NCBI GenBank assembly: GCA_964036195.1
Contig: OZ038459.1
Coordinates: 9,049,206 to 9,113,205 of the forward strand
Reading direction: 5' to 3'
Origin: Sphaerolaimus hirsutus
Lineage: Eukaryota; Nematoda; Chromadorea; Monhysterida; Sphaerolaimidae
Length of the DNA: 64,000 nt
Shown: positions 1 to 60,931 of the stretch, one piece after another
How positions within the stretch are numbered: position 1 is the first letter of the stretch
How the letters are laid out: the number at the start of each line of letters is the position of its first letter
Translations under genes and position numbers: made by a program
Notes under the pieces: generated by a model
The model's input: only the letters and a program-made list of their open reading frames with translations
What the model was told of the DNA's origin: nothing
Database searches by the model: none

Positions 1-2071
1 TGAAATACAATAACAATCTTTTGAATGCCCCTTCGACAAAGCTTGGCGCGTTATCGCTCAAAATGGCGCCGGGTACGCTAAATATGGGAAGAATGTGTAG
101 CAAGAATGCAAATGCTACAGTATCCTGCTGGATATCGGGTACCGGAACAGCGATACCAAATCGCGTGCACTGGTCAACGAAAACCAACACGTGTTTATGC
201 CCGCGCCGCGTGCGTGGCAGCGGGCCAACGGCGTCGACTGCGATGACATCGCCGGGAGATCGCGCGATTTTCCGGCACGCCATCAAAGTCTGCATCGACT
301 GCCTGAGTCCTTTTCGCGCACAACACAAAGGGCACGTGGCGACCCAATGCGCGCTTTCGGGGCGCATATTTGGGAACCACGCAAATTCCTGTAATCTTTC
401 GAACGTTTTCATTATTCCCAAATGTCCCGCAGTAGGATGATTGTGTGCTAGTTCGAATACTAGCGGGCACAGTGAGGCTGGAATACACACAGGATCATAC
501 AACTTGATCCCCGGTACTATTGAAGCCTCAGCCCTTTTTCGCATGATTCCATATTGATCAATGAAAAACGGTGGCACACATTGTCCCGGTGCATCCTTAC
601 AAACTTCCATCAAATTCACTATATACGCTTCTTGCATCTGCAAGCGCTTCAATTCAATTATGGGGACAAACGGGGGCAAAACGTGATCAGTGTGAAAACC
701 GTTGACGCGCACTTCGGTGGCCGCGGGGCCACCAGCCATTGTTTGTGGACCTACGGTAGTGAGTCCGGTAATTGGCTCCACCCCATTGTTCGTCGGCTGT
801 CGCGTGTCCATTGTCCCAGGGATGTGGTCACGCGCCGCAGACTCCGCCCTCGCACGCGCGCGTGTCCTCATTGGTTCCTTGATAGGCGCGCGTCTGGAAA
901 CAGTAGCTACCGTATCCCACGGGTCAATTGCGGTCTGCGTCGCGACAGTTTTGTTGTGCGATATTTTAATGAGTGCAAATTGCTCAAATGCCTCGTCAAG
1001 TTCCAATTTCTCGTCGAAAGTTATTGGCGCATCACGCCTTCGGGACAGAGCATCTGCGAGCTCGTTGCATTTTCCTTTCAAATGCTTGAATGTAATTTGA
1101 TACGGGGCAATGGCCAATGCAAACTTATGCAATGCGGCGTGTGGTGTAGCCTCCAAATTGGGGTTCTTCACCCAAGGGATACTTTTGGCATCAGTCCACA
1201 CTTCAAAGGGGCGTCCCGCCAAGTAGCAATGCCAATTTCGGACGCTCTCAAAAATTGCGTAAGCCTCTAGAGTGATGGCGGGCCATCTGCTCTGAACCTC
1301 AGTCAACTTCCGGCTGTAGAACGCGCACGCATGCAGTCCAGACTTTTCGTCGGCTCGCTGCACCAGCACTCCAGCGACCGCAATTTGTGACGCGTCTGTA
1401 ATTACGATGAACGTTTTATTTGGGTTCGGGTATTGCAAACAGGGGCTGTGTAACAGTATTTCTTTTAATTGGAAGAAGGCTCTCAGAGCCTCAGGATTGT
1501 CGTTGAGATCTACCGGCGCGTTTCCATCGTAGTTCTCGCGCGGACCGGTGCGTGTCAAATTCGATAGCGGCACTGCTATTTCGGCGCACCTGTGTATCAT
1601 GCGTCTGAAAAATCCCACTGCTCCCAAAAACCCTTTGACTTCCTTGACAGTTTTCGGGAGGGGCCAGTCTGAGATAATATTGCGTTTGTCCATGGGAATG
1701 CAAATGCCCTCACGGCCGATCATGAAGCCCAGAAATTTTACCGCGGTAATGCGTGCGAAAAAACACTTACGGGGACTAATTTTGAAATTGTTTTTGATCA
1801 ATCGATCCAAAATTTGGCCGATGTCACTCAAATGGGTTCTCCAGTCCTGACTGTAAATTAGCAGGTCGTCAATGTACAATAGCACATTGCGATGGATCAG
1901 TCCCGCCATTGCAAGCTCAAAACACCTTTGTGCCAAACTTGGTGAGCATTTTAATCCCATAGGTAATCTCTTTAATTGGAATTGACCAAAAATATTACGG
2001 AACGAAGTGATGTGTCTGTCGTCGGGATGCAGTGCAATGTTATAGAAAGCCTGATTAATGTCGGCACTGCT
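1..2071 (-). pseudogene. Gypsy Pol, 3' part: RT core, RNase H, integrase (frame-broken, edge-truncated)
   Basis: The minus strand stays open from about 2071 to the window edge. RT motif B-like residues lie near 1960, the catalytic YIDD near 1868-1880, and RNase H TDAS near 1396-1410. A linker follows, then an integrase zinc finger (HPTAGH near 420-440 and CPLCC near 320-335), the first catalytic Asp in DAVGPL near 220, and the second in SDNAPSF near 50. The catalytic Glu is beyond the edge. It is separated from the upstream RT segment by a +1 change at an A7 run on the plus strand (2072-2078), which gives an immediate TAG at 2070-2072. Apart from that I see no stop, so decay is slight. Confidence 0.8.
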
Positions 2072-2886
2072 AAAAAAACTTGCAGTTGCTGAGTGCATCC
2101 ACGGTGTCATCCAGCCTCGGCAATGGGAATTGCGGCGCATGCAAAACCAAATTTAATCGCCTGTAATCAATGACCATGCGTTTAGAACCATCAGGTTTAG
2201 AAACAACTAATGTGGGAGCGCAGTATGGGCTAGTGCTTGTTTCAATTATGTCGTGTTCAATTAGACAGCGCAGGTGCTTTTCCAAGTATTGCTGGTCATC
2301 CAGGCTCAACCGATACATGCGGCACGCAATCGGTTTTCGATCAGTCAATTGCAGTCGATAATCGACTAATTCACTGTACCCTATGTCGTACTTATGTCTC
2401 GCAAAGGCGCCTTTGTGCTTCAAAAGTACGGCTGCAAGTTCCTTGCGCTCATTTTCCGACAATGTTTGGGGCACAGAAAATTCCATTTCATGTCCATCTG
2501 GACATTTCACATGCAATGGCTCACCTAATTGGTCTTCAATTACCTTCTCTGGAACGCTTGAAGATACCGGCTCTGTCGCTTCGTTGGCGCGGCACTGCCG
2601 TATCCATTCCTCCGGGGGGTCGCCGGCTTTGACTTTCAGAACACAATCGACGGGCTCAACCAAGCCGATTTTTTGTTCCATCTGCAAGGTAATCGGTTGA
2701 TCACGCACGTTTGCGACCCTCATTAGAAACACCTCGTCACTTGTTTCATATGCGGCAGATGCGGCAACTACCCCATCCTTCAAGTTTACGGATTCCAGCC
2801 CAGTGACCGTAAATGTGCGATAGCTAACTGGAGCTGATAGGCGCACCGGCACCATTGCTTCATGCCTTGCCTTGATTTCGGTAGCC
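2070..2886 (-). pseudogene. Gypsy Pol, middle part: protease-RT linker and start of RT
   Basis: This minus ORF resumes directly after the hAT-like insertion. It carries the region between protease and RT and the first RT blocks: a KPDGSKRMVIDYRRLN stretch near 2140-2190 and the PLPRLDDTVD block near 2100, both typical of Gypsy RT. It ends at a TAG created by the T7 run at 2072-2078; the next frame continues with normal RT sequence. In the uninterrupted element it belonged to the same reading frame as Gag-Env-Protease. A separate start at 2855 has no support beyond being the first Met-type codon. Confidence 0.78.
2072..2078 (-). other. T7 homopolymer frame change inside RT
   Basis: The plus strand has A7, read as T7 in the coding strand just after codons for N-C-K-F-F. 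Seven T residues lead to TAG, whereas six would stay in frame with the rest of RT. A slippage mutation, an assembly error or, less likely, programmed frameshifting could explain it. Confidence 0.6.
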
Positions 2887-2894
2887 GCCGTGAC

Positions 2895-3556
2895 TAGGGT
2901 GTCAAAAAAATTTTTTTACGGAAAACGGAAACGGAAACGGAAAAAAATTTTCAGTGGCCGGAAAACGGAACGGAAAACGGAAAAAAATTTGCACTTGGCG
3001 GAAAACGGAAACGGAAACGGAAAACAAATTTCAGCGGCCGGAAAACGGAAAAAGAGGCCGGAAAAACGGAAACGGAAACATCAAATTTGCACGGAAATGG
3101 GAAAAACTTGCTGGAATTTTGCTGGAAATCGGATAAAATTTGCTTAATTTTTGCTGGAAGTGGAAAAAATTTGCAGTAATTTTGCTGGAAACAGAATTTT
3201 TTTTACATCATTGACAATCTGCATGAATTTTTGCCAGTTTGGCTGATCAGAAGACCGAAAGTTGAGCCAGAAAAAGGTAAAATGAGGTGGAAAAATGGAA
3301 AATTGAGGCGGAAAATGGAAAAAAGGCAGAAAAACTGGAAATTGAGGCGGAAAATGGAAAAAAGGCAGAAAAACTGAAAATTTAGCCGGAAAACGGAAAA
3401 TGAGCCGGAAAAACGGAAACGGAAAAAAATGTTGCCGGAAAATGGAACGGAAAACGGAAAAAAAATTTCAGCAGCCGGAAAACGGAATGGAAAACGGAAA
3501 AAATTTGCCTGCGGAAAACGGAAACGGAAAACGGAAAACGGAAATTTGACACCCTA
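2895..3556. mobile_element. hAT-like non-autonomous element, copy 1 (in Gypsy polyprotein)
   Basis: The element is 662 bp with termini TAGGGTGTCAAA and TTTGACACCCTA, and a perfect 8-bp target-site duplication GCCGTGAC at 2887-2894 and 3557-3564. Eight-base duplications and a TAGGG-type terminus are characteristic of the hAT superfamily. The interior has no transposase; it consists of degenerate GGAAAACGGAAACGG-type units, so one strand is almost pure purine. It interrupts the Gypsy ORF between protease and RT and supplies about 60 phenylalanine-rich codons before a stop near 3382. Copies at 24408-24970 and 33590-34238 share termini and composition. Confidence 0.9.
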
Positions 3557-6500
3557 GCCGTGACTAATGCAAACACTGCCCGAATCTGCACGTCCGGCTT
3601 GTGGTTATCAAAAGGAATGCTGACGCCTACTGAGGGGATTTTTAAGAGGCGCGCGGGCATATCAATTATCATGTGCCGCAGCACATCCGCGCCCAAAATT
3701 ATATTGTCAACCAGGCCATCGATGGCTTGAAAAACAACACGAAACGTGTGTCCCCCTATCTCAATGGGCATTTCCAACTGACCAATTATCATTAGCTTGG
3801 AATCCGCAGCGCATCGCATGTGAGAAATGGGAGAAGTTTCTTCAACGGCGTCATGTCCATGTCGATGCTCCTGGAACACGTCTCTGCTGCATAACGAGCG
3901 CATGGCGCCGGTGTCCAGCAAACATCGGTGGTACATGATGCCGTCCATGCACACGGGCACTGCAGGACTATAGTAGACATGCACAGGCCCGTTCCGCCTC
4001 GCGACGACAGACTTTATATTTTCCTGTTCATCTTTTGATAGCGTAATCATTCTGATTCTATCCACCGATGGGCTCATGGAAATTTCCGCCATTTCTAATT
4101 GGTGATTATATTCAATTGATGGAAACATCTGTACCGTTACCGTGTCACCTGATGCGCGCTCGGACGCATCTGTTGTCGGATTCAACACGGTCAATCGGCC
4201 ATCATAACTTTTCATAAAGCTACGCTTACCTGCGTCTCTGTGTCTGGTAATTAGCGGTCTCGACTCCCGTCGCAGTCGTCGGCGCGCTCGTTCAATTAGC
4301 GTCGTAGCTGCCGGGGGCGCGGCGGCTAACAGAGCTGCTAATAAATACTGGCAAGTCACTATGGCGCACACCAGGTAAATCCATATCTGCAGCCATGACC
4401 TTAAGGCGTCAAAATCCCAAAATCCCACGCTTACCATTGACCTGGCCATTAATCGATGCGATTGTAAACTGCCATCAACCGCATGCGTCGGCATTCCATG
4501 CACGCGCCGCACAATCGCGTATGAGTGCCACACGTCGTTCAGCGTGGTAGTCGGCAGCAGCTCAGACAAATTGTACATTGTCGTTGCGGCAAAGATCTGA
4601 TGGTGCACATCCGTCGGTCGTTCGAGTTGCCACCTGTGTGGGAAACTGTGGGTGTTGTAAACGGGGATATGTTCCAGGGCGCCTTTCTCAGGTAAATACT
4701 TGTACCACTGCCCATGCAATTTCAATACACGGTTGTGGCGATTTGTGCACGTTCCCATAACCGGCTGGAACAGAAGGGCATTTGTAATTGTATCCAAATG
4801 TAGGGTCACATTCTGTCCATGTAATTTCATTCGTATGGGGACCGTAGCGTGGCACGCGCCTTTACCTGTTTCGGTGCCCAACTGATAAGTCTTTACCGCA
4901 AAGCACTTATGCACTAGAAATCCGTCTGGCGCCGCCTTGGCCAAAATCTCATTGTCGCGCATGTACCAGCGCGCCGTGGTCGTCGGGTGCTCGGTCATAG
5001 CTAGGCGGAGAAGTTCCTGAAAATGTTGCACATGCCTACAAGTAGACACGGCCTGTGCACGCATAGTTTGCTCAGATGTCTCGTACACCGCTTGCATCGC
5101 TGCGGCCAAGTGACCGGTGTCCACTACGCCAAATCCGGGGCGTGCTGCGCGACGCTTCTCCCGCACATACCTAATTGGGGGGATTTCGAACGGTGCCACA
5201 ACAATATCCTGGTCTGATTTCCATAGTTTTTTACCACATGAAATGATTTCTTCTTTTGCTCGAAATGACAATGCCAAAGTGTGATCACGCGCGAGCCAAA
5301 TATCTTGTCTAATTAACCCAGCTATTTCTTGCCATTTCTCATAGGGGCATTCAGCCTTTGGGTTGGGTTTCCAGACTAATTGGCTACCGTCGGGTAGGGT
5401 ACAGGTGCCCTCCTCGTAATTACACTTTGACACTTCTCCTAACGTACTTTGCATGATCTTGGCGCCGTAGCGCATGCGTACATCTCCCTTAAACAACCCA
5501 CACTGCGGGGTCTTGGTAATTAACCAGCTGCAACAGTACAGCCCGTGCCCCGAGTAACTCACGTTTGTCGGGTATTGAGTATCCCATGCGTTGCTCAGCT
5601 CGTCCACTGGCTGAAGCGCGCCGTCGTTGCACTTATGGTACTTCATCATGCTCTCACACTCCGAGGGATCTACCGCACGTGGCTGCGAGTCAAAATGTTC
5701 CAAAGTGACGTCACCCCAGAAGTTCTGGTATGTATGAGCCGACCGCGTGGCCGCTACACATCGATACGCAGTGGCGCGATACTCTACCATATTGCGTTTG
5801 TAAATAGTAAGTTTCAGGGGAACCGGTTTAGTCAACGACACAGCAGAATCGACTAACGCGGTGCAGTTAGGCAGGTCGGGGTAGGTGTACAAGTCGTAAT
5901 GATCGGTCAGGTCGCTGCACAGCAGTGGCGTGTCCGGCATCGTCGTGGCCCCCGCCAACGACATCAAGCTCAAGCACGCCATCACCACGGCGATGGTGAA
6001 AACTGTAAACAAAGCGCCAAAGACTTGATTATTATATGGTGGCTCAGAATACGCTCGCTGGCGAGGCACTGCGGACGTTTTGTCTCTAAATTCGGCCATT
6101 TTATCAACGCATGTGCTCGAAAACGTACGCGGGGACAAAATCACAGGGGGCTCATTTAGGAATGGGTCTAATGGGGCGTCACGCAAAACCCTCCACTCGA
6201 TTCTAGTAAGCGTATCATTGTGGTCGTCATGCGGGCGACAGTCTGGGAGCACCACGCAATCTTCATCCTTCAGATCATGCATTGCAGTGCGCCGCAGATA
6301 ATCTAACCAACTGGTACGAAATAGGATTGACGTGGCTTCGCGTTGATACGCCCAGTGGCTAATCCACTGTTCCCTATCTACCATGAGCGCGTGCATTTTA
6401 CACTGAAGGCTAGCTACAGGTTGCTCCTCCATCTCCTCCTCCTTGTCAGGGGCTTCCGGTTCCAGCCCTTGCAATGCCAATAGTTGATCATGATGGAAGA

Positions 6501-9249
6501 GAATTCTAGCATAAGACGGCGATGACTCGGTCACGGCCTTGTAAGTGCATTCACCCACCTGTGTCACTGTCGTCGGGTTCAACAGCGGCACGCTGCTGCT
6601 CTGGCCTTGCTGCGATTCCAACGGCCGTTGTGCCGGTTGTGGCTGCGGGTGCCATCCGATGGCCGCGGGCTGCTGGCTCTGAACGTACACAGGCTGCATC
6701 ATCTGCGAGGAAGGCACGGTCATAGGTTGACTTAATTGCATCGGTACCCATCCACCTGGATACCCAAAGTTTTGTGGATATTGTCCTCCCTGTCCACGGC
6801 CTCGCCCTCGGCCGCCACCTCTACCGCGCGCACGAAAGTCGCCTCCGCGGCCACGCTGATTGCTATCGTTGCCGGCAGATGGCTCGGGAGGGGGCTTATT
6901 TGGACATTGGTAGCGAAAGTGATCAGGAGATCCACATTCCCAACATCCATTTTCAAACCTTTTGGGCGGCAACTCACGCCTCGGGCGCGGTGCGCCCATC
7001 ATCTTAGCTTCCTGGGCGTCGAGTTTTTTCTGTCGTTCGTCGAGCGCCCGTTCCTTGGCCTTGAGCTTCGCATTCTCGGCACTCTCTGCCTCCATCGACT
7101 GGACCGAGGGGTGCAAGTTCATGGCCATGATGCGCTCCATGACCTGGTTCGACGTCTCGGCGACGATCTCGCTGGCCGACTTCGCATGTTCCTTCTGAAC
7201 GGTTTCAAGGTTTTTGTAGCTTTCTTGCATGCGCGCATTATCAACTAATTCCTTCCAGCTTATATTGGCGTGCACCGCCAGGTTGCGCCTAATGTCCTTG
7301 TCCAACCCCTGGTGAAACTTAGTGATGCACATGCCTTCCCTTTGGGCGGAATGCAGCATTGGATACGCACGCTTTACTGCACGTTCCAATCTAGTTGCCC
7401 AATCCAGCACAGATTCAGTGGGACTTTGAGTTGACTCAATAAACTCGCGCTGTGCATGATGCTGGGCGTTGGGGTTTGCAAACAATTCTTCCAAACGATC
7501 CATCATGGCTTTGTAATCAAGTGCGCGCAGTTCCCGCCTTCTAGCTACAAAGATAGAATTGGCATTCTTTTGTAAAAAGATAGGCAGCAACTTTTGCCTA
7601 GAGCGCATTGAAACACCTAGCGCATCACACAAAATATCCCACTTACGTCTCCAATCCTTGAAACTCTTGTCAGCCCTTCCAGTGAATGCATCGCACTGCG
7701 TAGCCAGGGCGGTCAGCGTAGCAGCCGTGCCGTGCGGCACCTGGTGCTGCGCCAGATAGTCTGGATCCGTAGGATTAGGTGCAGGTGAGAGCGATCCTGA
7801 CGATCCTGGGGAGGAGGGACCCGGCTGTCCCGCCAAATTGATTACACTGGTAGCTGGTTGAGCCGTAGCGTTTGCAGGCGCAGGTGCCGCTCCACTGCCA
7901 CCCGCTGATCCGCTTACACTCGCCGGCGGGGGCACAGTCTGCGCGGTTGTGTTCCCAGGGGCCGTTCCCGCGCCCAAGGTAGCATTAGCTGCCGATGCTA
8001 TGGGTGGAATTAATCCCCTGTTAGAACAAAATGCCAAAAATTGAGTAGTGGCCTGCTCCAGCGCGCTGGGGTTACCTACGCTGGTGTACATACTTAAACC
8101 TAGCCTAATGGCCTGTAGCTTATTTTTATCTGCTGCAGAAGCATTGACTGAAATCGCCGCTGGTCCCGCGCGGTTAAGTTCCCCAGACCACTGGTGCAAT
8201 AGCTGTATCATGCCCGGGAAGGTCCAACCTTCTCTAGTGTACCCAGTGGTCTCCCTGCCCGGGTCCGCCGCGGTCGCCGCCGTCAGGATCTGGCCCGGCG
8301 TCACTTGGTTGGCCGCCGCCGGGGTGGTCGTCACCGTTGTGAGCGTGGCCGGCGCGGTCGTCACACTCGAACCTGGGGGTGGGGTGCTGGTCATTCTACT
8401 TTGATTTATGGGAGACGGTCCTACAATTCTGCGCCGTGCTCTATTCGAAGAGACACAGCTTTCAATCGAGCCTTGCGCGGACGCAAGCTCGCGTGGTGTG
8501 GATGAGCTTCGCGGGGCACTTAATTGAAGCTCCCCCAATGAATTTTCCGCCTCTTCGAGCTCTTCGGCTAACGAGGGAAATTCAATATTTATATCTGGGA
8601 TCGCTACTGGGGTGTCAATTAGATTTACGGAAGTCTCACCACTTCTACGCTGGTATGCAGACGAACTCACGGGCTCGTCTTCACCAGCGTACCCTGCTGA
8701 ATCAGCCTGTGATCCAGACCCTGTCGACACCGGGGAGCTACGGCCGCTTTTTCCCCACGGTCGTCGAAATAAACCCCACTTACTTGATTTCCGCTGCTCT
8801 CGCCCGGGCTCAGCACTTACTGGCCTGTCGGGTCGCAGGAGCGGACTATCTGGTGGGCGTTCTGTTTCTGTGCCTCCACTGGACGCTCGTCGAGCCGCCC
8901 CAGTCGGTAGCGCACCTGGCGCGCAAGCCGGCGTATCCCAACGGCTGCCGCCTGTTCCTGCATGTGCAATTCCAAATTGCAGCACTGGCCGGACGACGGG
9001 AGTGCTATCCTCTGTGCGTCTGGTCCAAGTCGCTGCTTCCTGTGCGCGCTCGGCTTCCGCTTCCGCTTCCTGCGCACCTGCTTCAACTCTTACCTGTTCA
9101 ACCTCAGCGTCCTGCGCGTCCGCAGTCTGCTGTGCCCTGCGCAACGCCGCTTCTCGGCGCGTGCGCTTCTGTAGCTGTTCTGCAGCTCTCCACACTTCCT
9201 CAACTGACCCTGGGATCGACGCTGGCCCTCCTGACCGCAGCGTTTCCAC
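3382..9249 (-). CDS. Gag-Env-Protease part of Gypsy polyprotein (C-terminal 60 codons from inserted element)
   Basis: This is a 1955-codon open frame. Residues 1-770 are Gag: a charged N-terminus, a Pro/Thr/Ala-rich stretch, a capsid-like region around 500-690, and one CCHC knuckle (C-x2-C-x4-H-x4-C) near 768-781 followed by an RG-rich tract. A linker leads to a hydrophobic segment near 1075-1100, a cysteine-rich ectodomain of about 520 residues, and a second hydrophobic segment near 1620-1645. A retropepsin-like protease follows with LLDTGA (Asp near 1779). Residues after about 1895 come from the hAT-like insert. The first codon listed is GTG; an in-frame stop lies just upstream and the first ATG is near residue 285, so the true start is unclear (non-AUG start, splicing, or later ATG). 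Membrane segments in a Gag-Pol chain are very unusual; the predicted topology puts Gag and protease on the same side of the membrane. Confidence 0.85.
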   Translation of the reverse strand: METLRSGGPASIPGSVEEVWRAAEQLQKRTRREAALRRAQQTADAQDAEVEQVRVEAGAQEAEAEAERAQEAATWTRRTEDSTPVVRPVLQFGIAHAGTGGSRWDTPACAPGALPTGAARRASSGGTETERPPDSPLLRPDRPVSAEPGREQRKSSKWGLFRRPWGKSGRSSPVSTGSGSQADSAGYAGEDEPVSSSAYQRRSGETSVNLIDTPVAIPDINIEFPSLAEELEEAENSLGELQLSAPRSSSTPRELASAQGSIESCVSSNRARRRIVGPSPINQSRMTSTPPPGSSVTTAPATLTTVTTTPAAANQVTPGQILTAATAADPGRETTGYTREGWTFPGMIQLLHQWSGELNRAGPAAISVNASAADKNKLQAIRLGLSMYTSVGNPSALEQATTQFLAFCSNRGLIPPIASAANATLGAGTAPGNTTAQTVPPPASVSGSAGGSGAAPAPANATAQPATSVINLAGQPGPSSPGSSGSLSPAPNPTDPDYLAQHQVPHGTAATLTALATQCDAFTGRADKSFKDWRRKWDILCDALGVSMRSRQKLLPIFLQKNANSIFVARRRELRALDYKAMMDRLEELFANPNAQHHAQREFIESTQSPTESVLDWATRLERAVKRAYPMLHSAQREGMCITKFHQGLDKDIRRNLAVHANISWKELVDNARMQESYKNLETVQKEHAKSASEIVAETSNQVMERIMAMNLHPSVQSMEAESAENAKLKAKERALDERQKKLDAQEAKMMGAPRPRRELPPKRFENGCWECGSPDHFRYQCPNKPPPEPSAGNDSNQRGRGGDFRARGRGGGRGRGRGQGGQYPQNFGYPGGWVPMQLSQPMTVPSSQMMQPVYVQSQQPAAIGWHPQPQPAQRPLESQQGQSSSVPLLNPTTVTQVGECTYKAVTESSPSYARILFHHDQLLALQGLEPEAPDKEEEMEEQPVASLQCKMHALMVDREQWISHWAYQREATSILFRTSWLDYLRRTAMHDLKDEDCVVLPDCRPHDDHNDTLTRIEWRVLRDAPLDPFLNEPPVILSPRTFSSTCVDKMAEFRDKTSAVPRQRAYSEPPYNNQVFGALFTVFTIAVVMACLSLMSLAGATTMPDTPLLCSDLTDHYDLYTYPDLPNCTALVDSAVSLTKPVPLKLTIYKRNMVEYRATAYRCVAATRSAHTYQNFWGDVTLEHFDSQPRAVDPSECESMMKYHKCNDGALQPVDELSNAWDTQYPTNVSYSGHGLYCCSWLITKTPQCGLFKGDVRMRYGAKIMQSTLGEVSKCNYEEGTCTLPDGSQLVWKPNPKAECPYEKWQEIAGLIRQDIWLARDHTLALSFRAKEEIISCGKKLWKSDQDIVVAPFEIPPIRYVREKRRAARPGFGVVDTGHLAAAMQAVYETSEQTMRAQAVSTCRHVQHFQELLRLAMTEHPTTTARWYMRDNEILAKAAPDGFLVHKCFAVKTYQLGTETGKGACHATVPIRMKLHGQNVTLHLDTITNALLFQPVMGTCTNRHNRVLKLHGQWYKYLPEKGALEHIPVYNTHSFPHRWQLERPTDVHHQIFAATTMYNLSELLPTTTLNDVWHSYAIVRRVHGMPTHAVDGSLQSHRLMARSMVSVGFWDFDALRSWLQIWIYLVCAIVTCQYLLAALLAAAPPAATTLIERARRRLRRESRPLITRHRDAGKRSFMKSYDGRLTVLNPTTDASERASGDTVTVQMFPSIEYNHQLEMAEISMSPSVDRIRMITLSKDEQENIKSVVARRNGPVHVYYSPAVPVCMDGIMYHRCLLDTGAMRSLCSRDVFQEHRHGHDAVEETSPISHMRCAADSKLMIIGQLEMPIEIGGHTFRVVFQAIDGLVDNIILGADVLRHMIIDMPARLLKIPSVGVSIPFDNHKPDVQIRAVFALVTARVSNFRFPFSVSVFRRQIFSVFHSVFRLLKFFFRFPFHFPATFFSVSVFPAHFPFSG
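4315..6027 (-). other. Envelope-like glycoprotein domain embedded between Gag and protease
   Basis: It begins with a hydrophobic signal or anchor (5950-6027, ending SLAGA), then about 520 residues with many cysteines and N-glycosylation sequons. A CN-x3-G-x-C motif near residue 1276 is followed by DG-x2-L-x-W. A basic furin-like site (REKRRAAR) lies at about 5131-5172, and a hydrophobic anchor at about 4315-4390. The Cys/Gly/Trp motif order matches the envelope in the BEL element at 47638-50550. By recall it resembles the fusion glycoproteins of chuviruses and other mononegavirus relatives; a profile search is needed to fix the family. It is in frame with Gag before it and protease after it. 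Confidence 0.7.
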
Positions 9250-9337
9250 CCGGCGCGACAGATCGTTTGTTACTTATCACTTAACGGCTTGGCGTTGATC
9301 AGGCGCCGCACCGTTCACTGAAGTGAATTAAGCTAAC

Positions 9338-9355
9338 CACTCGCGTCTGCTACCA
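9338..9355 (-). promoter_or_regulatory. candidate primer binding site of the Gypsy element
   Basis: On the minus strand TTGGTAGCAGACGCGAG occurs about 100 bp upstream of Gag. TTGGTAGCAGA-type sequences are common at the LTR/leader junction of Gypsy elements, where a tRNA 3' end primes reverse transcription. I cannot confirm the junction because the other LTR is outside the window. Confidence 0.35.
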
Positions 9356-9356
9356 A

Positions 9357-10400
9357 GTTGTCATGAATCCGTGTATTCAGCTGTTTTTCGATTACACGAT
9401 TCACGAGGTTTTTTAGCGCACTTTTCCCTCTATTCCCACTTCACCGGCCGCTTACCGCTGCAGTGCACTGCACTGGGCCCGGAGGTCCAGATTATAAATG
9501 CGTGTTGTAAATTTTAAGGAAACGTGTCCGAAGACGGTAGGTTTTTCAGAACGTGCGATGAACCACTCGGTGGCTCACGCTGTTCCGTTTCCCGCAGCAC
9601 GCACAGCACTTACACTCAGCGTAAGCAGCGCGGTAATTAGAGCAGTTGTTAATTAGCTAACTAAGGGAAAAAGTTAGTACTTAGTGCCAATACAAAAAGG
9701 GGGTCCAAGTTGGGTTGAGAAGAGAGTTTATTTTTTGGGCGATGGAAGAACAGTAGCGGCAGAGTAGAAGCAAAATTAGCTTACGTCGCATCGACGAAGT
9801 TGGGGAAAAAGACAATTTCGGCTACTTATAAGGCAATCAAGACTACCATAATTGACTTGAATAAAAAGCAAAAAGAACATAACATTGCGAAGTTACAAAA
9901 TCACTTTCAAATCACATAAGCTCTGATGTAAGCACTTAGTAAAATCGTACGTAACGCAGCTGCTTACAAAAAGAGTACTAATTAATATCAGCTAACAAAA
10001 GTAACTAAAAAGCTTCATGCGACATGGGGCTAAGTCTATAAATTACAAGCTTACTTAATACGACAATTACTCACTTCCATAATTACCTACAAATCCCTAC
10101 TTAACATAAAACGACCTAAAACAAATAACAATGCAGTGCAACGCATTTTTACAAAGACAGAATGAACAAAGTATGTACAAAGGCAATTACGGCATCATAA
10201 TCCAACACAGCAATTTAAGCTAAATAATTAGACAGCTAACACAAGCTTACAATTAATGTTAATTAATTAAGATACAGAACGATTAATTAAGCTCGTGGGA
10301 ATGAAAGGCATTGGCGTGAAACGATCTGTACAATAGTTTCTACATGTCACATGGAAACTTTGCTTGGGGGTTTTGTATTCATTAATTACGGTAGCTAGAG
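9357..10400 (-). repeat. probable 5' LTR of the Gypsy element (outer limit unknown)
   Basis: No ORF is visible. On the minus strand an AATAAA-type polyadenylation signal lies at about 9727-9737, as expected in the R region of an LTR, and the inner edge would abut the candidate primer site. The rest is AT-rich with many TAATTA words. The right boundary is a guess: with the 3' LTR missing there is nothing to align it to. Confidence 0.35.
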
Positions 10401-11500
10401 AATGCTCGCGGGCGCGAAGTGCTTATCACCTCCAGTCCCGCGACCCACTATTGTGACTATCCGGTCAGCTAGCGCCCGTGAGAAAGGTTTCAGCCCGATG
10501 GCCACACCCTTCCGAGCGCGAGGAAATATTTATGCTAGGGCGGCGGAAAAGTATTTTTTTTTGGACTGCGACTTGTCACTTGGGGCATTATCAGAAGCTG
10601 TTCCTACCACCCACCGATACTAGATGACGCACGACAATCTAGTCAACATGGGGAGGAACGCGGAACAGTGCTTTTGTATTTTTTTGAGTGAAATTCATTG
10701 TTCCTGGCTTCCGGTCGCCACCTACCTATCAGCCGTCAGTCTCCGCCTCTGCCCAAAGATAAGTAAAGGGTAGAATGTGCTTTAGACCGCCCAGAGAGTC
10801 ACAACAGTGTGCCGGCGAGCCCAAAGGCGGCCACACGCCGCGCCGCGGCATTTCAAAGTGAAAAATGTGAAATTCCCCTCTCACCTTATGCCATGTGGAA
10901 TGCAGTTACACCTAAGTTAGACATAACCTAGCTAAGTTGACTTAAATAGATTTGGCGCACGAAAATAGTAATTAAAATTGGGGGGTAAGGAAACGAAATT
11001 GTGCAGAGCACTACAACCACTATAAAACAAGGCGAACTCGGTCAGCCCAGGTAGCGGCGTCGATCTTGCGATGCAGTGCTCTGACGGGGTACTGCGCAGC
11101 CCACTGCAGGGCTGTGCATGCCATGCAGTCCCCGTTGCCGTCGAAAAGCCGCCGTAATGTCTGAGAAAGTTTGCCCAAATTTAGTTTACAAAATACATAG
11201 TAGTTTACGTTCCGTGAATTATTATTGCATTTGTTTGTCTAAAATTTTGTGGGGTGGTGTTTTTCCCATCGTAAAAACGCTCTTACACATCCCTAGTTTT
11301 GACTCAAGACTTTTGACACTTTGCATGATATTTGAAATTTTACAGGGACTGGGACTGGCACCAGGCAAGTGGTTTCGGTCGCCGCGGCACCGCAGCAATT
11401 GAATCAGCTGTTTTGTGACTTAATGAGGTGGTTTTCTTCTTTTTTGAGCTGTTTTTAATGTAACGGCGCGACTACTGAATTTTTAGCTGACAAACTTGTA
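10400..11500. other. intergenic sequence, no recognised feature
   Basis: It is GC-richer than most of the window, with short open frames only (for example 10402-10623 and 11118-11402) that show no recognisable domain. A TATAAAA box-like string lies at about 11022. It may be the outer part of the Gypsy LTR or host DNA. Confidence 0.3.
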
Positions 11501-24407: not shown

Positions 24408-24970
24408 TAGGGTGTCAACTTTCCGTTTTCCATTTCCGCTTTCTGCAGGCAAATGTTTTTCCGTTTCTGTTTCCGTTTTCCGGCTGCTAAATTTTTTTTC
24501 TGTTTCCGTTTCCGTTTTTCCGGCTCATTTTCCATTTTCCGGCTAAATTTTTGGTTTTTCCGCTTTTTTTCTGTTTTCCGGTTCAATATCTGTTTTTCGA
24601 ACTTTTTTCACTTTCCAGCTCATTTTTTTGTTTTCTGTTTCAGCCAAACTGGTAAACATGCATGCAGGCTCTCAATTATGTGAATTTTTCCCATTTTCAG
24701 CAAAATTTCTGCAAATTTTTTTATTTCTGGATAAATTTCTGCAATTTTTTTTCCGTTTCCGGCAATATTTCAACAAATTTTTTCCATTTCCGGCATATAT
24801 TTGGCAAATTTTTCCGTTTCCGTTTTCGTTTTCCGGCCTTTCATTTTTCCGTTTTCCGTTTTCCGGCAAGTGTAAAAATTTTTCCGTTTCCGTTTCCGTT
24901 TTCCGGCAAGTGCAAAAATTTTTCCGTTTCCGTTTCCGTTTTCCGCCAAAAAGTTTTTGTTGACACCCTA
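24408..24970. mobile_element. hAT-like polypurine/polypyrimidine element, copy 2
   Basis: The element is 563 bp with termini TAGGGTGTCAA and TTGACACCCTA and a perfect 8-bp duplication GTCAGGTC at 24400-24407 and 24971-24978. The plus strand is pyrimidine-rich (TTTCCGTTTTCCGG units), the reverse of the copy at 2895. Confidence 0.9.
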
Positions 24971-25029
24971 GTCAGGTCCCATATCCAGAAAAAATGGCAC
25001 TGGGAGTTGTGCGCAGTGCTTTTTGAAAA

Positions 25030-32848: not shown

Positions 32849-35800
32849 CTGCGTAAAACGTAGTCATTTTGACCACTTGACAGCGTCGTGTCTACCATAG
32901 TTGTTAAAACGTATTTACTTTTACTCGATAAATACGTATATTCGAGTACAGAGTGAATACGTTTACGTTTCCTCCGAAAAAAGTTCTGGTACACGCTTTT
33001 ACGTATACTTTTCGAAAGTACTCGAGTACAGAAAACGTATTTTAGATCGTCTTTTATATAGGTTTTTAAAGGCATAGAAGGAAAAAGGGAGAAAATGAGC
33101 TAAAAATATCGTAAACTAGTCGAAAATGAGTATAGAACCAAAAATATAGTCAAAAATTTCATAAGATAGGTAAAAAGTTATGAAAATGATTGTTTTTGAG
33201 CGACATTTCTCAAAAATTTTGGCGACATCTTGGCATGGCAAGAAGCTTGGCTTCTCTCAAATTTTGGCAAAAATCTCAAAAGTACTCAAATTACGTTTTC
33301 TGTGGGGAAAAGTACGTTTACTCACGTTTACTCATGAGTAAAAGTAAAAATATTTTACTTTACGTTTTGTGTACTCAAGGGGTGAGTAAAAACCAAATAC
33401 TTTACGTTTATGTATACTTTGAAAAAATTTTCGGTACTTTTAACAACTCTGGTGTCTACTTGAATTAACCCCCATTAAAATATGTGTTTGATTACCTGTT
33501 CAGGACATTCAAGGTGCCGCCGCAATTGTATGCGTTGACATAGGTAGTTTTCAGCTGACAAAATTTTGTCTTTGAAATTCAGCAATAACTAGGGTGTCAA
33601 ATTTCCGTTTTCCGTTTTCCGTTTCCGTTTTCCGCAGGCAAATTTTTTTCCGTTTTCCGTTCCGTTTTCCGGCTGCTGAAATTTTTTTTCCGTTTTCCGT
33701 TCCGTTTTCCGGCAACTTTTTTTCCCGTTTCCGTTTTTCCGGCTCATTTTCCGTTTTCCGGCTAAATTTTCAGTTTTTCCGCCTTTTTTCCGTTTTCCGC
33801 CTCAATTTCCAGTTTTTCCACTTTTTTCCATTTTCCACCTCAATTTTCCATTTTTCAGCCTCATTTTACCTTTTTCTGGCTCAACTTTCTGTTTTCTGAT
33901 CAGCCAAACTGGTAAAAATTCATGCAGATTGTCAATGATGTGAAAAAATTTCTGTTTCCAGCAAAATTACTGCAAATTTTTTCCACTTCCAGCAAAATTT
34001 CAGCAAATTTTACCTGTTTTCCAGCAAAATTTCAGCATGTTTTTCCATTTCTGTGCAAATTTGATTTTTCCGTTTCCGTTTTTCCGGCCTCTTTTTCCGT
34101 TTTCCGGCCGCTGAAATTTTTTTTCCGTTTCCGTTTCCGTTTTCCGCCACATGCAAATTTTTTTCCGTTTTCCGGCCGCTGAAAAAAATTTTCCGTTTCC
34201 GTTTCCGTTTTCTGTAAAAAAAAATTTTTGACACCCTAGCAATAACTGAATTCGCGACTAAAACTTGTCAAGGTAAAACCAAGGTGGAAAAGTTTTTTTT
34301 AACATCACGGGTCAAGGTTTAACATCACCAAACCTGGTGATGTTAAAATGTTACGTGATGGCGTGATTAAAAAAACACATTTACTTCGAAGCACAATAGC
34401 CAATTTATTACACCTAAATACCTCAATTGCTGTGTTGCCGAAGAAAGCTTGCAGCACTGACACACGCCGTCGAATTGTTTCTGGGTCTGTCTCGTTCAAA
34501 CCCCAAAAATGCGCCGCCGCCAGTGCCTGTGAAATAAAATTCATTATCAAAAAACCGAAATTCTACGGCTGTTGTGCGTGGAGCTGTGCTGTCAGTTTAC
34601 CCTTCAGTAAACGTAAATACAAAATCACTAAAATCACAATAAACGTATAAAATACTGGATTTTTTCATATTTTCCAGTTTAAAATTTTTTTGTTTGAGCT
34701 AAGAAACGCCTAAATTTATTTATCATTTATTTAGTTGTTAAATCAGCCAGTTCTGTATAGGGTATCAAAAAATGATTATCCTGAAATCGGAAAATCAGGA
34801 GTGGAAATTTTCAGCTGTCTGAAAATTTCTACTTCTTATAAATCGTGAATCGGGAAAATGAAATTACCGGAACCTTACCACGAAATAAAAAATTGCTGAA
34901 ATTTTACTGGAAAATGAAGAACTTCCCATAATTTAACATGCTCGGCTCAACTGCCGTTTGAACTATCCATGTGAAATTGAAAACATCTTTCTGAACATTG
35001 AAACCACAAACTCGATTTGTAAGCGCAAGCGCTCATTTCCCCACCCATTTTCGCACAATATCTATTCATTCATAAAACCCAATACTTTCAGAAATCCTGA
35101 GCACGTCGTGCCTGCATGCTAGTTCTCACCCTTCAGTTAAAAAAGCATCATCTTTAAGACAAACGTTGACAAAATCTTGTCGGCAAACGATGTGTCTGTC
35201 AGGTTTGTCACAATCGTTCTAGAAATTGAACCCAAATATTAAAATTAACAAAAAAAATTGTCGCACCTGTCCACCAGGGAGGATCTTGTTAGTCATACTT
35301 TTCGTAATTTGCACATAGCGTATTTCGCAAAGCTTCCGGCATTTTCTCATGCATGCATTGTTATGTGGCCTTTGTGTATAGGAATCATGTTTACATTGTT
35401 ACATAGGAATCATTTTTACACCGCGTAAATCGTGAGTAAAATACTTTTTCCAGAGAAAAGGTAAAAACAAGATTTTTCTGGGAAAACGTAAAAAGGGGCA
35501 TTTTTTCTCTCATAGAAAACGTAAACGTGAGTATTTTTTATCACAGAATAAGTATTTTTTCAATTTTGTCACTTTCTGTTTGGCAAAATGACATTTTTTA
35601 TACCTTAAAAATACGTTTTCTATACTCACGTGCTTTCTACGTTCTAAATCTACGTGAGTAAGTGAGTACCGTTGTTTTTGTCGCGAGGAAACGTAAACAT
35701 ATTTACGCAGTACTCGGGCTACGTTTTTTTCGAGTAAATGTAAATACGTTTTAACAACCATGAATTTTTGTGAAACATGATCACTGACCTGTCAACTTCT

Positions 35801-38800: not shown

Positions 38801-41800
38801 TCGGACTCTTTCTCGGTCAGCCCTATTCATCGTACCGCACATGGGGGGGGGGGTGCTGGGGCCCCTTTTAACCGGGTTCCGTATACAATCCCCGGTGAAA
38901 AAATTAAAAATCCTTGATTCTCTGATTCAGTCAACAAATATTTAGTCCCAAACGTAGGCACATAAAAAAATCAATATTTACATTGATCAGGTTAATTTTT
39001 TGTCATTGTTTATTTCTGATAAGCGAATCGGGCTGCCCGAAAAAGTTTATCATTCTGGGCGAATTTCTAACCTGGTCATAGAACTTTTTCTCATTGCACG
39101 CAATCTCTCTTTTATACACTATCTGAATTATCATGTCATCACATGTTAAATGTCCAATATTTTCACCATCGGCAAAAAGCGGTGGCAGTTTGCCAAGCCG
39201 CTCCTTCGCTTGTACAGAAGCATTTTCTTTCGAATTCTGTGGAAACCACGTTTCGTATAAAGCAGCGATGAATTCCGATGTGTCATCCTCGGTGTATCCA
39301 TTGACTTTCATTTTTTCATAGCTGAACGTGTGCAAAGTGCACGCCGTGACTGTCGGCATTTTAGCTGTGACCATTTCCGTTTCATCGCCTGTGCAAAAAT
39401 TTTGTCGACATCAGAAGTTTTTCGCCAGGTGATCATTCCGCAAGAGGACATGTGTAACATTATCGTAAAATGTAAAAACCTATAATATTTAAGTTAACTT
39501 TCTTATGTTCTCTTTTATATTCAATTAATTCAACTCGTCAAGATTTCATTCATATTTACATTCCCATTTTAACATCTTCACCTTCACCAATTAATATCTC
39601 AAGCGATGTTGTTTACAACATGCGCTTCACATCGTTCACATATTTAGATCTTAGTCATTGCTCACATTCCGCCACATTTCCTTGACAAGCAGCACGCATA
39701 TACGCCGTCATGTTTATGTTAAGCGGCGGGCCCGCCCCGAGCAGGGCGCCGGGCCCGCGCGCCATTTCAAATGCCGTCTGGCTTGTCTCACATTTTCACT
39801 ATCTTGCCAGTTTAGCTCGCTTTTCATCGGAGAAGCGAGCGGGCAAGGATTGAACTTTCACAATTGGAAATGTTGGGTAAAAATCGGAGATTAGAGCCGA
39901 CCGATTGGCGCCAAACCAATCGCCATCGGTCGGCCCTTAAAAGCCGATTTCACAGCTACAATCGGCAGTGTTTGCAACCTCGTCAACTTCACACGAATCT
40001 CTTCCTAGGATCTAAATAAGCGCCGTAGTCACTTTATTAAGTCGCTTGTTTTTGGTGCTAAGTTTAACGCTTGGTGCTCTAAGTCACCTCAGTGCTTTAT
40101 TTCACACCAGCGCTGTTTGAGGTGCTTTATTCACAACCGCGCCACTTAATTCTCGCCTTTTGTCGTAATTAAGTGCCTTCTTTTAATTGCCTTATTTCTC
40201 CGGTAATTAGAGCTTCTTTTACGTTTTATTTAAGTAATTAATTTAGTTGTAAATTAATTCCTTTGTTTACGTATATTTTATATATATTTTATTTACATTT
40301 AATTCTTTGTATTTAATCGCCTAAATAAAAACGTTCGTCAAAACCTTTGGTAAACAATCTAAATTTGCTTCACACTAACTCACGTCAATTCACTTCAACT
40401 CAACTAATCACATTTGATAAAATAACGGAACGTCAATTAGAGACGACGCTTCACGTCAACTTTCACTTGTTCACATTTGTCCTCTTCCTCGGTTAGGAAT
40501 AGGAGCTGGTTCACAAGTCACTTCAACAAGTTCCGTATTATTTTACATGGCGCAGCGAGCAGGGTGACTAATTAAAACTAATTGGTCACTCTAATTAAGT
40601 CGTCTCGCGCGAAATTTCATTGGAAATTGCTTTTCACAGTTTGAGTCACACGCACGGGGTTACGGTAATACGGTTTTGGATGCAAAATCGTTAGTAGCGC
40701 GTGCATAAATACTTACGATTTTACAAGTACAAGTCACAAGATTCGAAATATTTATTTTATTATTTTATTTCGTTCACAGCTAGCTACCACTTTGCTAATA
40801 AGCAATAAATTGATCAAACTTTGCTATGGCCGACGAACGCATACGCGCTCAGCGCGCCGCCGCCGCCGCAGCTATGCCTGCGAGCAACGTTGAGGAGTTC
40901 GACACAGCTCATCCGTTGACTCAGCATAGCCGGGCGCTGACCGGAGTGCGCAACGGAGTGCTACGATTCACATCCAAACCGATTCCTAAAATCGTCAAGG
41001 ACGAGTCACAACCCGCCGCCGTCAACATACGGGCGGCGGAGGAAGTATTAGAACTACTTCAGGCCTACGGCTACCAGGCCGAGATGAAACGCTCGGACCT
41101 GTCTACGGCTATGGACAAATTCACAACCACTGTCCAAGATTACATCATAAGCCTAGACAGAGACGAAGACGGAGCGGCCGAGGAGATAAAGAGCGCCAAC
41201 GCAAAATTGGATCGCGCGCTCTACTCTGGCTCGAACAACGCGATGATGCTCATGGATGAGCTGGAATCGAGGATTGCGTCCGCCCAAGCGCACATCAAAT
41301 CCGCGGAAAGGTTGATACTTTCCTTGAAAGGTCAGTCCCCTGTTGATTTAACTACTCAACCCCTTTCACAACCCCCTTACAACAATGTCAATATGGGAAG
41401 TAGTTCTCAACCTTCACAACCGGAAACTTTGTTAAAGTTACCAAAAATCGAGCTTGCTAAATATAGCGGTGATCCGTTAGAATGGGCAGCTTGGTGGGAG
41501 ATTTTTCGAGCTCAAATTCACGACCGAGCTAATTTGTCAATGGGTATGAAATATACATACCTCAAGCTCAGCCTTACCGGTCCAGCAGCAGAACTGCTAG
41601 CCGGATTAAAAGGTGATGGTCGAGATTACATCACAGCGGTCACCATGTTACAATCAAATTTTGGTGAAACGCATCGGGTACAAGCAGCCCTTTGGGATAA
41701 ATTGTATTCACTTGAAAAACCTTCGTCAAGAGGAGACTCTCTCACAAATTTCACACGAACCCTTTTGTCAACTCTCAATCAACTTAAAGAAAGAGGTGAA

Positions 41801-44800
41801 AGTGTCGATTCTGGTGCAGTGTTAAGAATAATTCGTGGTTATCTTCCCGATAATATTGTTCTTGCCGTCACAGAAGAACACCGGAATTCGATGCGCACCG
41901 CTGTAACCGGCGACACCGAACTCACAGTCGTCAGGTTTGTCGATGCATTAACTACCATTGCTCGTGCTCGGTTAGACGCGATGAAAACTGAACAACAAAG
42001 TTCACAATCTTCAACTGTTGTTCAGAAATCACAAAATTCATCGGTAAAAAAGCCACAAAATGGAGGAGGTTGGCAACAGCAAAAGAAAAAGGGAAATAAA
42101 TCACAAAATACCTTTTCAAAACCAAAACCTATTCACAATACGGTTGCTTTTGCTGGTACCAACGCTAACGCTGGTAAATCACAAGGAAAAAATAAAAATT
42201 CCACTCAACCTCCCAGAACTCCGGCGATCGGAGCGATTAGTCAAAAGCAGCCCTCACAACCTGCTGCTAACTATCGCCAGCCGAAATTCGAGTGCTTGTT
42301 CTGCGGCGTCAAAGAGCACTACACAACCGATTGCCCTCAATACGTCACACCGAGAGAGCGCACTGAACGGTTGCGAGCTTTGGGCGACGTGTGCACGCGC
42401 TGCACGCGCAGAGGCCACCAAGCGGCACAGTGCACTCAACAATTGAGTTGCTACTACTGTCGCCAGATTGGTCAGCATCACGGGGCGTTCTGTCCTACCA
42501 GACAGGCACCCGCCAGGCGTCAGGTAAACAATTCACAAAATAAAGCCTTTGTCAAAGCAATGAGCGCTAATTTTGTCAACGCTCAGGTAATCACAACGGG
42601 CGCGGCGTCGTCACATGCACCGCCATCGTATCCGCCTTCACAAACGGAACCGATGAGCGTGTGTGTCATCCCACCGGATGAAAACGATTTCCGGTGGAGA
42701 CAGAGTACGCTGTACCAGCTGGACATGGACGGCCCGCTCGACATGGGCGAATGGCCGAGGCCCGCTAACGCACAACAGGCGAAAGCTCAGGAGGAAGCCC
42801 GCAAATATCACAGCGAGAACGAGCTGTGGACGATGCTCCGTGCCAACCTCATCCAGGAAGGCACAGATATGGAGAACGTCGAGGCCAAAATCCGCGGCTT
42901 CCAGCAGAAACGGTACGAGGTGTACCCACACCTCAACCCGAATCAAATGTCATCGTCGGTGCCACTTCAACCTAGTCACAGGCCCACGGTGGAGGTGCTG
43001 AGCGCACAGGCGGGTTACGGTAACCCCAACCCGCTACCAGGCAGCAGGCCGAACAAGAATGTGAGTTCGATTTTGCACCTATTGTTCGTTTGCAAGTGGC
43101 CCAGGCTTCATTAATTAATAAAGACGCTGAATTAAATCGAGTCACAGACCCTTTGTTAATATTCTTTGACACTGGATGCGAATATTCATACATTAAAGCA
43201 TCCGTGGCAAATGAGTATAACTTTGAAAACAAAGGAGATGTTGTTCTTCAAATGAACGTGTTTGCGACAAAAACGCCTGTCACAGTCAATACGTTTTTGG
43301 TCGAGGCTGTCATGCCTATTTACAAACACGTCGACAATAAGGGCAATATGTTACAAATTCCGCTCACCTTACGTGCAGTGGATAATTTAGCAACATATGC
43401 ATGCCCACCTCCTTTGTCACAAGACGACAAAACAGTCATTTATATTGTGTACGGTGAACATGCACAAGAACAATTCGCGGAACCGCTTGAATTGACCGAA
43501 ATGACTGATGAGTTTTGTCACAAACTATGTCAACCAGATGTAGTCATTGGTCAAGACTATTATTGGAAGTTCGATATTCGACCAACAGAAATCGAACTCC
43601 CATCTGGCTTGATCATAGTCGAATCAATACTTGGGTTGATGTTAGGCGGAAATGCGTCCTCACAATCATTCGTCACAACACCCGACATTTCCCCACATCA
43701 ATTCATGGTTTCATGCAGTTCACATGCTTCATCAGCTGTTGCTGTTGGCCAAGAGACATTATTTCAATTTCACAGTCTCGAGTCAATAGGTATCACAGAT
43801 GATCCCTTATCACATGATGACGACATAGCTGAACAGTTAATTCTGGAGTCAATTACTCTTGATCCAGAAACTGGTCGCTATAGCGTGGATTGGCCATTCA
43901 AATCAACCATTCAAGAATTGCCAACTAACAATGCAGAAGCATTTCGTCGCTTTCTGTCACTGTTGAAACGGTTTCGAAAAGATCCCGATTTATTCGCTAC
44001 ATATGCGAAAGTCATCTCAGATCAACTTCACAAGGGGGTCATCGAAACCGTCTATGGTTCACAAGATGGTCTGCAAGAACACATCTTACCTCACCAACCT
44101 GTCCTCACACCTGGCAGATCGACAACATGTCGAATAGTGTATGATGGTTCTGCAGGTAAACCAAGTCTCAATAATTGCTTATTTCGAGGCCCAGTTCTCA
44201 CACCACTGGCGCTCGGATTAATGCTTCGCTTCAGAGCTGGAAAAGTGGTGTTATTAGCGGATATTGAAAAAGCATTTTTACAAATTGCTCTTCACCCAAA
44301 ATCACGCGCCTTCACAAAATTTTACTGGCTGCGTGATGACACCATTCCGTCACATGAAGACAATATTCAAATGATGCAATTCACAAGGGTGCTGTTTGGC
44401 CTCACATGCAGTCCATCCATTTTGTCAACCGTCATCAAATATCACCTAGAAGAGGAATTAGCTCACATGCATCCCGCTGAAACCAATGAACGAATGAAAT
44501 TGGAGCTGTTGCTCAACAGCATTTACGTTGATAATTTAGTTATCAGCGTAGATGATGACAACTATGCAATACAGCTCTATCGTTTAATTAAAGCTGTTTT
44601 TGCCAGAGCAAATTTCAACATGCGCGAATGGATGACAAATTCGCCTATGGTCTCGGAAAAAATCAAACCCGATGACCTCAACCCGAAAAAGTCACAATAC
44701 ATCAAAGTAATGGGTCTCGTTTACGATCACATTGAAGACACCATTGCAGTGCCAGCTCCCAAAAAAGATTTCACGCTCATTGTCACAGCCACTCGCCGCA

Positions 44801-59425: not shown

Positions 59426-60474
59426 AAATTGCACTATAACACGAGATCGAATCTCGTTCGAATCACACTAGGGATCGAATCTCATTCAAATCACTAAAGG
59501 GATCGAATCCCGTTCAAATCCTTAGAGGGATTGAATCTCGTTCGCTCTCATCGGTAAATGAGGTAAATACAGCCAAAAAGTGTACATTTTTTATAAATTT
59601 TTCTCAAAAGTGACAAATTTAACATTTTTGGGAAAAAATGCCAAAAATTTGGGCAAGAAGTCAACAAGTCCACTTAGTTTTGGGCTGAAAGTCGACAAGT
59701 CCACCTTGTGTAGCCTCAGTTTAAAGGAAAAAAATGCAAGAAATGTGATAAGTCCATCATGGACACCAATTTCAAACAGTCGACAAGTCCATAAATTTCC
59801 CATAAGGCAGGCTCAACCTGGGCGGGAACAAAAATGTTCTCGAGTGCAAGAAGTCGACAAGTGCATTTTCCTCCCCAAAACAGTTTTGTGCGGTCCGAGT
59901 AGAATTTTATATACACCCAATTTTTCCATTATACAGCGACAGCAGGGGCTGAAAATTTGACACTTTATTGCTAACACTTGGAACTTAACGTTGAGCATGA
60001 GAGAGCCCCATTGGACACGCACCTCGGACCTGGAATTGGAAATGAAACTTAAAATATGATTTACTCAAAATCGTATTTTGTGGACTTGTCAACTTTTAGA
60101 ATTAGACGCCTCAATTACATCATTATTGCAGTGTGTGCTACTTACTAACTCTGTGACAAAATGTGCGAGGCCCCAGAATGTGCGAGGCCCCAAAATGTAC
60201 ATGATCCAGAATTTCAAAATGTGCGAGACCTCGAAAATGTGCGAGGCCTCGAAAATGTGCGAGGCTTCAAAAATGTGCAAGGCCTCGAAAATGTGCGAGC
60301 CTCGAAATGTGCAAGGCATCAAAATGTGCGAGGTCTCAAAATGTGCGAGCCTCGAAATGTGCAAGGCATTTTAACCCTCGTTTAACCCCGCCCCCCCCCC
60401 CCTCTTGGGAGCACTATGAAACAATCACCCCCGGGGGGGTATTTCGAGGAAATATTTACGGTATGACATTTTAC
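59333..60474 (+). repeat. segmental duplication 2, copy B
   Basis: Almost identical to 30410-31553. Ends at GTATGACATTTTAC, after which this copy continues with three TTTTACAGGGTCT-type repeats and a second minisatellite. Confidence 0.75.
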
Positions 60475-60619
60475 AGGGTCTTTCACACATTACAGGGTTC
60501 AACCAACACTTTACAGGGTCTATTACATGACATTTTACAGGGTCTTTTGCAAGATCTGAGAGTGCCCCTTGGTGTCTTGTGACACATTGCACAGCCAATA
60601 GCAATTGCGATCGAAAACG

Positions 60620-60925: not shown

Positions 60926-60931
60926 TAGAAC

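Follow-up and report, generated by a model that had tools for sequence, protein, structure and literature searches.

In the giant Gypsy-like Burro elements of planarians, env was reported to sit between gag and pol in the same frame (PMC6431247). We analyzed a 64,000-nucleotide stretch of the nematode Sphaerolaimus hirsutus (GenBank assembly GCA_964036195.1, contig OZ038459.1, positions 9,049,206 to 9,113,205; hereafter the window), whose minus strand holds part of a Gypsy-like long terminal repeat (LTR) element with Env between Gag and protease. The two share the LTR/Gypsy-like type, the large size and the in-frame position of env after gag and before protease; in Burro, as here, env resembles mononegavirus fusion glycoproteins (PMC6431247). 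The first-pass annotation of the window knew of no earlier element arranged Gag-Env-Pro-Pol; this claim does not hold, because Burro had already been described, and what is new here is the combination of features, not the order itself (PMC6431247). Burro elements differ in exceeding 30 kb in total, against 18.7 kb here including an insert, and in having one ORF1 of 4873-5140 aa, whereas the frame here is split inside the reverse transcriptase (RT) (PMC6431247). Burro also carries BCL2, BIR, MATH and dUTPase-like domains (PMC6431247), for which the pieces scanned here gave no Pfam match, although Pfam may miss diverged domains. A UPF1-like helicase open reading frame (ORF) after integrase further sets the present element apart from Burro as described in PMC6431247.

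Other elements resemble this one in part. Anakin, a BEL-Pao element with a chuvirus glycoprotein, is likewise an LTR element with a captured glycoprotein of a negative-strand-virus class, but BEL-Pao env-like proteins lie downstream of the polyprotein (PMC7642597), whereas the element here is Gypsy-like with env before protease. Atlas virus, a hookworm belpaovirus, likewise has Env fused with Gag and Pol in one polyprotein, yet it belongs to BEL-Pao, has the order Gag-Pol-Env and uses a class II phlebovirus-like fusogen (PMC9094657). In bdelloid rotifers, the LTR element TelKA also bears a fusion glycoprotein that comes from a group of negative-strand viruses, but this Env is of class I and has its own ORF3, downstream of pol (PMC5408684). 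Troyka elements are described as encoding no envelope (PMC12440569), and PMC10084718 reports no clear evidence of capture of a Jingchuvirales glycoprotein by Gypsy or Copia elements.

In the S. hirsutus element, a class III fusion glycoprotein probably lies within the main polyprotein, in the order Gag, first transmembrane span (TM1), Env ectodomain, second transmembrane span (TM2), protease and RT N-terminus. The minus-strand frame at 9273..3382 is open for 1963 codons from stop to stop, far longer than expected by chance, and bears in order a Gag capsid-like piece, a CCHC knuckle, TM1, a Cys-rich ectodomain, TM2 and an aspartic protease (Table 1). This agrees with the first-pass annotation, which had placed the CCHC knuckle, a hydrophobic leader, the ectodomain, a membrane anchor and the LLDTGA protease in one frame. 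Its hAT insert was also borne out: protease and RT of this copy are separated by a hAT-type insert with 8-bp direct repeats (GCCGTGAC) at 2887-2894 and 3557-3564 and inverted ends (TAGGGTGTCAAA), both read by eye, and a 92.6% copy of it lies at 33589-34239. A hAT-type non-autonomous repeat rich in CGGAAAACGGAA units has copies at 2895-3556, 33589-34239 and 24509-24974.

The annotated identity of the middle domain as an envelope glycoprotein was upheld by profile and structural searches. The focal Env matched the Pfam family PF24664 (Monjiviricetes_fusion) at 6.2e-8 and 31.5 bits, above the cut-off of 27, and this family matched all eight Env proteins collected from the genome, while the herpesvirus glycoprotein B (gB) family matched six of the eight. 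When a profile of the eight Env proteins was searched against the PDB, all 50 matches at E up to 1 were herpesvirus gB (best 1.3e-8), among them entries named BALF4, GP110, ORF8 and UL27, which we take to be gB names. A Foldseek search of the PDB with a predicted Env model gave a best match of 3.7e-17, and all 50 listed of 117 matches (E up to 1e-3) were gB; in a viral structure library, nyamivirus-like glycoproteins were best, with chuvirus-like glycoproteins and gB lower down. Together, the sequence profile and the local structure support the assignment of the middle domain to viral envelope-type fusion glycoproteins of the class III (gB/nyamivirus/chuvirus) kind. The likeness lies in the family profile and the predicted fold, and sequence identity in the structural matches was 9-19%; the herpesvirus, nyamivirus and chuvirus proteins are products of free viral genes, whereas the Env here lies within a polyprotein.

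Several results weigh against this assignment. PF24664 was the sole match of the focal Env taken alone, with a modest score; a single-sequence PDB search with it matched no chain, and a protein look-up outside the genome found no relative among 7989 scored candidates. The gB matches depend on a profile of eight divergent family members. A single-sequence model of Env reached a predicted local distance difference test score (pLDDT) of 38, and the alignment-based model was also weak (mean pLDDT 55, predicted template-modelling score 0.32). The template-modelling scores in the Foldseek PDB list were about 0.2-0.28 with large root-mean-square deviations, so that the match between Env and gB is one of local structure only. 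IMG/VR scans with env, pol and the env of a BEL/Pao element elsewhere in the window gave no match, and neither did an NCBIfam scan of the focal and BEL/Pao Env proteins.

The order found in the focal copy recurs throughout the genome. All own-genome searches used the same assembly (348 Mb, 762 contigs), and the Env piece used as query gave 74 rows from 73 scored candidates, a lower bound. Identity was 92-100% in 69 of the 74 rows, among which two cover parts of a single copy, and 69-70% in the other five, which represent a second subfamily. Frames of 2175-2178 codons contained 36 of the 74 rows, and four of the five subfamily-2 rows lay within frames of 2223-2227 codons. The order was checked on the plus-strand loci, 15 of the 30 fetched: in 15/15 one frame holds CCHC, the cleavage site and LLDTGA, and in 14/15 it holds the RT fingers as well, the remaining locus being cut by a contig end. 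Searching with Gag gave 103 rows, the 66 longest of which were paired with Env rows; Env lay downstream in 58 of these, at the spacing of the focal copy (430-436 bp) in 55 of the 58. Of the eight gag rows with no listed env, two were retrieved; in each, Env is present but its frame is broken. Env likewise lay upstream in 52 of 62 pol rows, and the pol frame was 931 codons and stop-free in 43 of the 62. Thus the order and frame of the first-pass annotation are common to many copies and a second subfamily. The checks that it had named, a search for copies lacking the domain and for a viral glycoprotein profile match, did not overturn its reading.

To gauge conservation, the focal copy was compared with subfamily 2 (locus L055) by the proportions of amino-acid-changing (pN) and silent (pS) differences; silent sites were saturated (pS ~0.8-0.9), so the pN/pS values are rough. 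Env had pN 0.20 and pS 0.84 at 70% identity, and its amino-acid change was lower than that of the Gag capsid (pN 0.35, 45% identity) or the protease (pN 0.29, 57%). The RT N-terminal part (pN 0.19, 73%) and pol after the frame change (pN 0.11, 85%) were also compared. The part of Env before the cleavage site was 77% identical, against 70% for the whole piece. Between subfamilies all 16 ectodomain cysteines and all four sequons were kept, and 12 of the 16 cysteines were invariant across the alignment of the eight Env proteins. Both transmembrane spans and the RxKR site were also kept in subfamily 2, in agreement with the two-span topology proposed earlier.

A second family in the same genome carries Env in a 5836-codon frame with protease, RT and RNase H downstream in the same frame. 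The RT of this family shares 30% identity with the focal RT (348 columns). The 1332 codons upstream of its Env matched no Pfam family, so Gag is not shown there. The recurrence across numerous copies, in both subfamilies and in another RT lineage shows that Env inside a Gag-Pro-Pol polyprotein is an evolutionarily maintained layout. Env was seen in frames of 5073-6806 codons at five loci elsewhere in the genome (L065, L066, L067, L070 and L071), and lay before protease and RT in the one case checked. Within the window, a BEL/Pao element at 40814-50550 on the plus strand has Gag at 40814-43114 and a Pol-Env frame at 43024-50550; its related class III-type Env (PF24664 2.1e-11, BDV_G 6.8e-5, herpes gB 1.6e-4) is placed after integrase, unlike the focal order.

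The first-pass annotation had the RT frame following once the hAT insert is discounted. This is correct for the N-terminal part of RT, which lies in the Gag-Env-Pro frame, but a conserved frame change splits the rest: the Gag-Env-Pro-RT frame stops at TTT-TTT-TAG-C and RT resumes in the +1 frame. The change was kept in all 14 other copies fetched (11 by strict pattern, three in the printed sequence), and in subfamily 2 the corresponding position reads TAT-TTT-TAG-C; these copies and subfamily 2 rule out that the frame change marks a decayed copy. Since RT homology runs ungapped across the site in the +1 frame, recoding is preferred over a splice acceptor. From the conserved site and the homology continuing in the +1 frame, we infer a programmed +1 recoding site. 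A conserved TTT-TAG-C frame change within RT is new here.

From LTR to LTR the element spans 18,732 bp with the insert counted in, as given by the positions of its two LTRs (Table 1); the 3' LTR and the helicase ORF both lie outside the window. The focal LTR pair is 99.84% identical (1929 aligned columns; two mismatches, one gap). TG...CA ends and 4-bp target-site repeats were present, by eye, in 3/3 copies read. The LTR pairs of two other copies were identical (1914 and 1890 bp compared), and the family has therefore moved very recently. The enzyme order protease-RT-RNase H-integrase is present (protease and rve matches below Pfam cut-offs). Based on this domain order and the RT_RNaseH matches, the element is classed by sequence as a Metaviridae-like (Gypsy) LTR element, and it is probably an endogenous enveloped virus.

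A 1337-codon ORF lies inside the focal LTRs, between integrase and the 3' LTR, at L009:94-4104 (= C15:9044299-9048309). It matched AAA_12 at 2.8e-23 and the IGHMBP2-type helicase model at 6.9e-10, far below that model's cut-off. UPF1 made up five of its six PDB matches (best 8.3e-5). Superfamily 1 (SF1) motifs I, II, III, V and VI are all present in the focal helicase, which is 99.7% identical to that of a second copy and 44% identical to that of subfamily 2 over 1218 columns, with a pN/pS of ~0.5 in the core. A protein look-up outside the genome returned nothing among 7998 scored candidates, and searches of open-licence papers yielded no report of a Gypsy element with a UPF1-like helicase. 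New here is the ORF for a UPF1-like helicase that follows integrase and precedes the 3' LTR. Insect retrotransposons with a viral SF1 helicase likewise combine a retroelement with an SF1 helicase, but they are mostly long interspersed nuclear elements with virga-like helicases, together with two Ty1/Copia fusions (PMC5563155); the helicase here is UPF1/IGHMBP2-like, in a separate ORF of a Gypsy-like element, and present in two subfamilies.

Table 1. Features of the element on the window (window coordinates; aa, amino acid of the 1963-codon frame)
Feature	Position	Strand	Basis or remark
5' LTR (TG...CA), 1929 bp	9359..11287	-	partner at C15:9041761-9043688, outside window
Primer-binding-site-like stretch TGGTAGC...	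9337..9355	-	directly inside 5' LTR; sequence
Gag-Env-Pro open frame up to hAT insert	3557..9273	-	part of stop-to-stop frame 3382-9273
First 293 codons of frame, no ATG	8395..9273	-	subfamily 2 homologue at 39% aa identity
Gag capsid + nucleocapsid piece	6484..7713	-	PNMA 3e-5, Retrotrans_gag 7.9e-4, zf-CCHC 9.5e-3, all below Pfam cut-offs
CCHC knuckle, aa 777	6904-6945	-	sequence
Env domain, 596 aa piece	4264..6051	-	PF24664 Monjiviricetes_fusion, profile, fold, family comparisons
TM1, putative internal signal/leader, aa 1084-1106	5956..6024	-	hydropathy; conserved in subfamily 2
Basic site REKRR, aa 1371, putative furin-type cleavage	5149..5163	-	RQKR in subfamily 2
TM2 and basic stretch after it, aa ~1624-1652	4318..4404	-	sequence; conserved in subfamily 2
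Aspartic protease, LLDTGA at 3921 (aa 1785)	3604..3993	-	gag-asp_proteas 1.1e-4, Asp_protease_2 2.8e-4, both below Pfam cut-offs
hAT-type non-autonomous insert, 662 bp	2895..3556	.	target-site repeats and inverted ends; not part of the element itself
RT N-terminal part	2072..2886	-	Gag-Env-Pro frame shared in other copies
TTT-TTT-TAG-C, frame end and putative +1 recoding site	2069..2078	-	directly before RT motif A
Rest of RT, RNase H, integrase start	1..2071	-	+1 frame; continues beyond window
RVT_1 8.9e-22, RT_RNaseH_2 3.5e-28, Integrase_H2C2 4.1e-15	within 1..2071	-	Pfam
rve 4.4e-7	within 1..2071	-	Pfam, below cut-off

Elsewhere in the window, plus-strand open frames resembling tandem repeats (KCARPR and ANENS units) lie at 60205-61016.

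These features can be arranged in a working model. One frame encodes Gag, TM1, Env, TM2, protease and the RT N-terminus. TM1 would thread the ectodomain into the lumen of the endoplasmic reticulum and leave Gag in the cytosol; transfer would stop at TM2 and the basic tail that follows it, so that protease and RT are cytosolic too. Signal peptidase may then cut Gag from Env near a conserved GATTMP, a furin-type enzyme may cut at RxKR, and the element's own protease may separate itself from Env. Equal numbers of Gag, Env and protease would thereby arise at a single membrane, a logic also followed by plus-strand RNA viruses with capsid-glycoprotein polyproteins. A +1 move of ribosomes at the conserved TTT-TAG-C inside RT would give the remainder of RT together with RNase H and integrase, at a lowered enzyme supply. 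The separate downstream ORF would yield the UPF1-like helicase, which may help to copy or protect the long RNA.

Further points stand against the polyprotein reading, beside those given for the class of Env and the roughness of pN/pS. The polyprotein is known here from sequence alone. ATG is absent from the first 293 codons of the frame in the focal copy and from the first 321 in subfamily 2, which leaves the translation start unexplained. As for the helicase, the DEAS of motif II in the focal copy is replaced by DKAS in the single copy of subfamily 2 that was read, which may impair ATPase activity.

A wider proposal, possible but with the balance leaning somewhat against it, is that the lineage has come to follow the layout of plus-strand RNA viruses, with a membrane-threaded polyprotein that yields capsid, signal, class III glycoprotein, anchor and enzymes, a +1 site in RT and a UPF1-like helicase for the copying or RNA decay escape of an 18-kb retro-genome. 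If true, Env before protease would be a recurrent arrangement in this genome, as in the second RT lineage with its 5836-codon frame.

Among the alternatives, the strongest is that, although the frame is continuous, most Env is produced on its own, by way of a spliced RNA or of translation starting within the Gag-Env junction, and that the in-frame layout is a relic of env capture. Its own RNA is the usual source of retroviral and errantiviral Env, Met codons lie near TM1 (aa 1059 and 1098), and the T-rich AG stretch at the RT site could serve as a splice acceptor. However, an unneeded fusion is expected to acquire a stop or shift at the junction, whereas 36/74 rows and subfamily 2 have kept it open even though silent sites are saturated; the second, distant RT lineage also has Env before protease. 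We therefore regard separate production as unlikely. Less probable still is that the glycoprotein no longer serves entry and is kept as an anchor sorting Gag and Pol to an intracellular membrane. The two-span topology would tether the entire polyprotein and both spans are conserved, but conservation is highest in the ectodomain, notably before the cleavage site, and all cysteines, sequons and the basic cleavage site are kept. A one-off rearrangement or assembly error, which the hAT insert and RT frame change of the focal copy might resemble in isolation, is highly improbable given an order, spacing and frame common to many copies on separate contigs and a frame change found in every other copy fetched and in subfamily 2.

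A glycoprotein carried within the main polyprotein thus remains the likely reading. The element is Gypsy-like with a glycoprotein of the broad Jingchuvirales class, a pairing to be set against the statement in PMC10084718. It makes testable the equal handling of Gag, Env and protease, the interruption of RT by a recoding site, and the use of a UPF1-like helicase for long retro-genomes.
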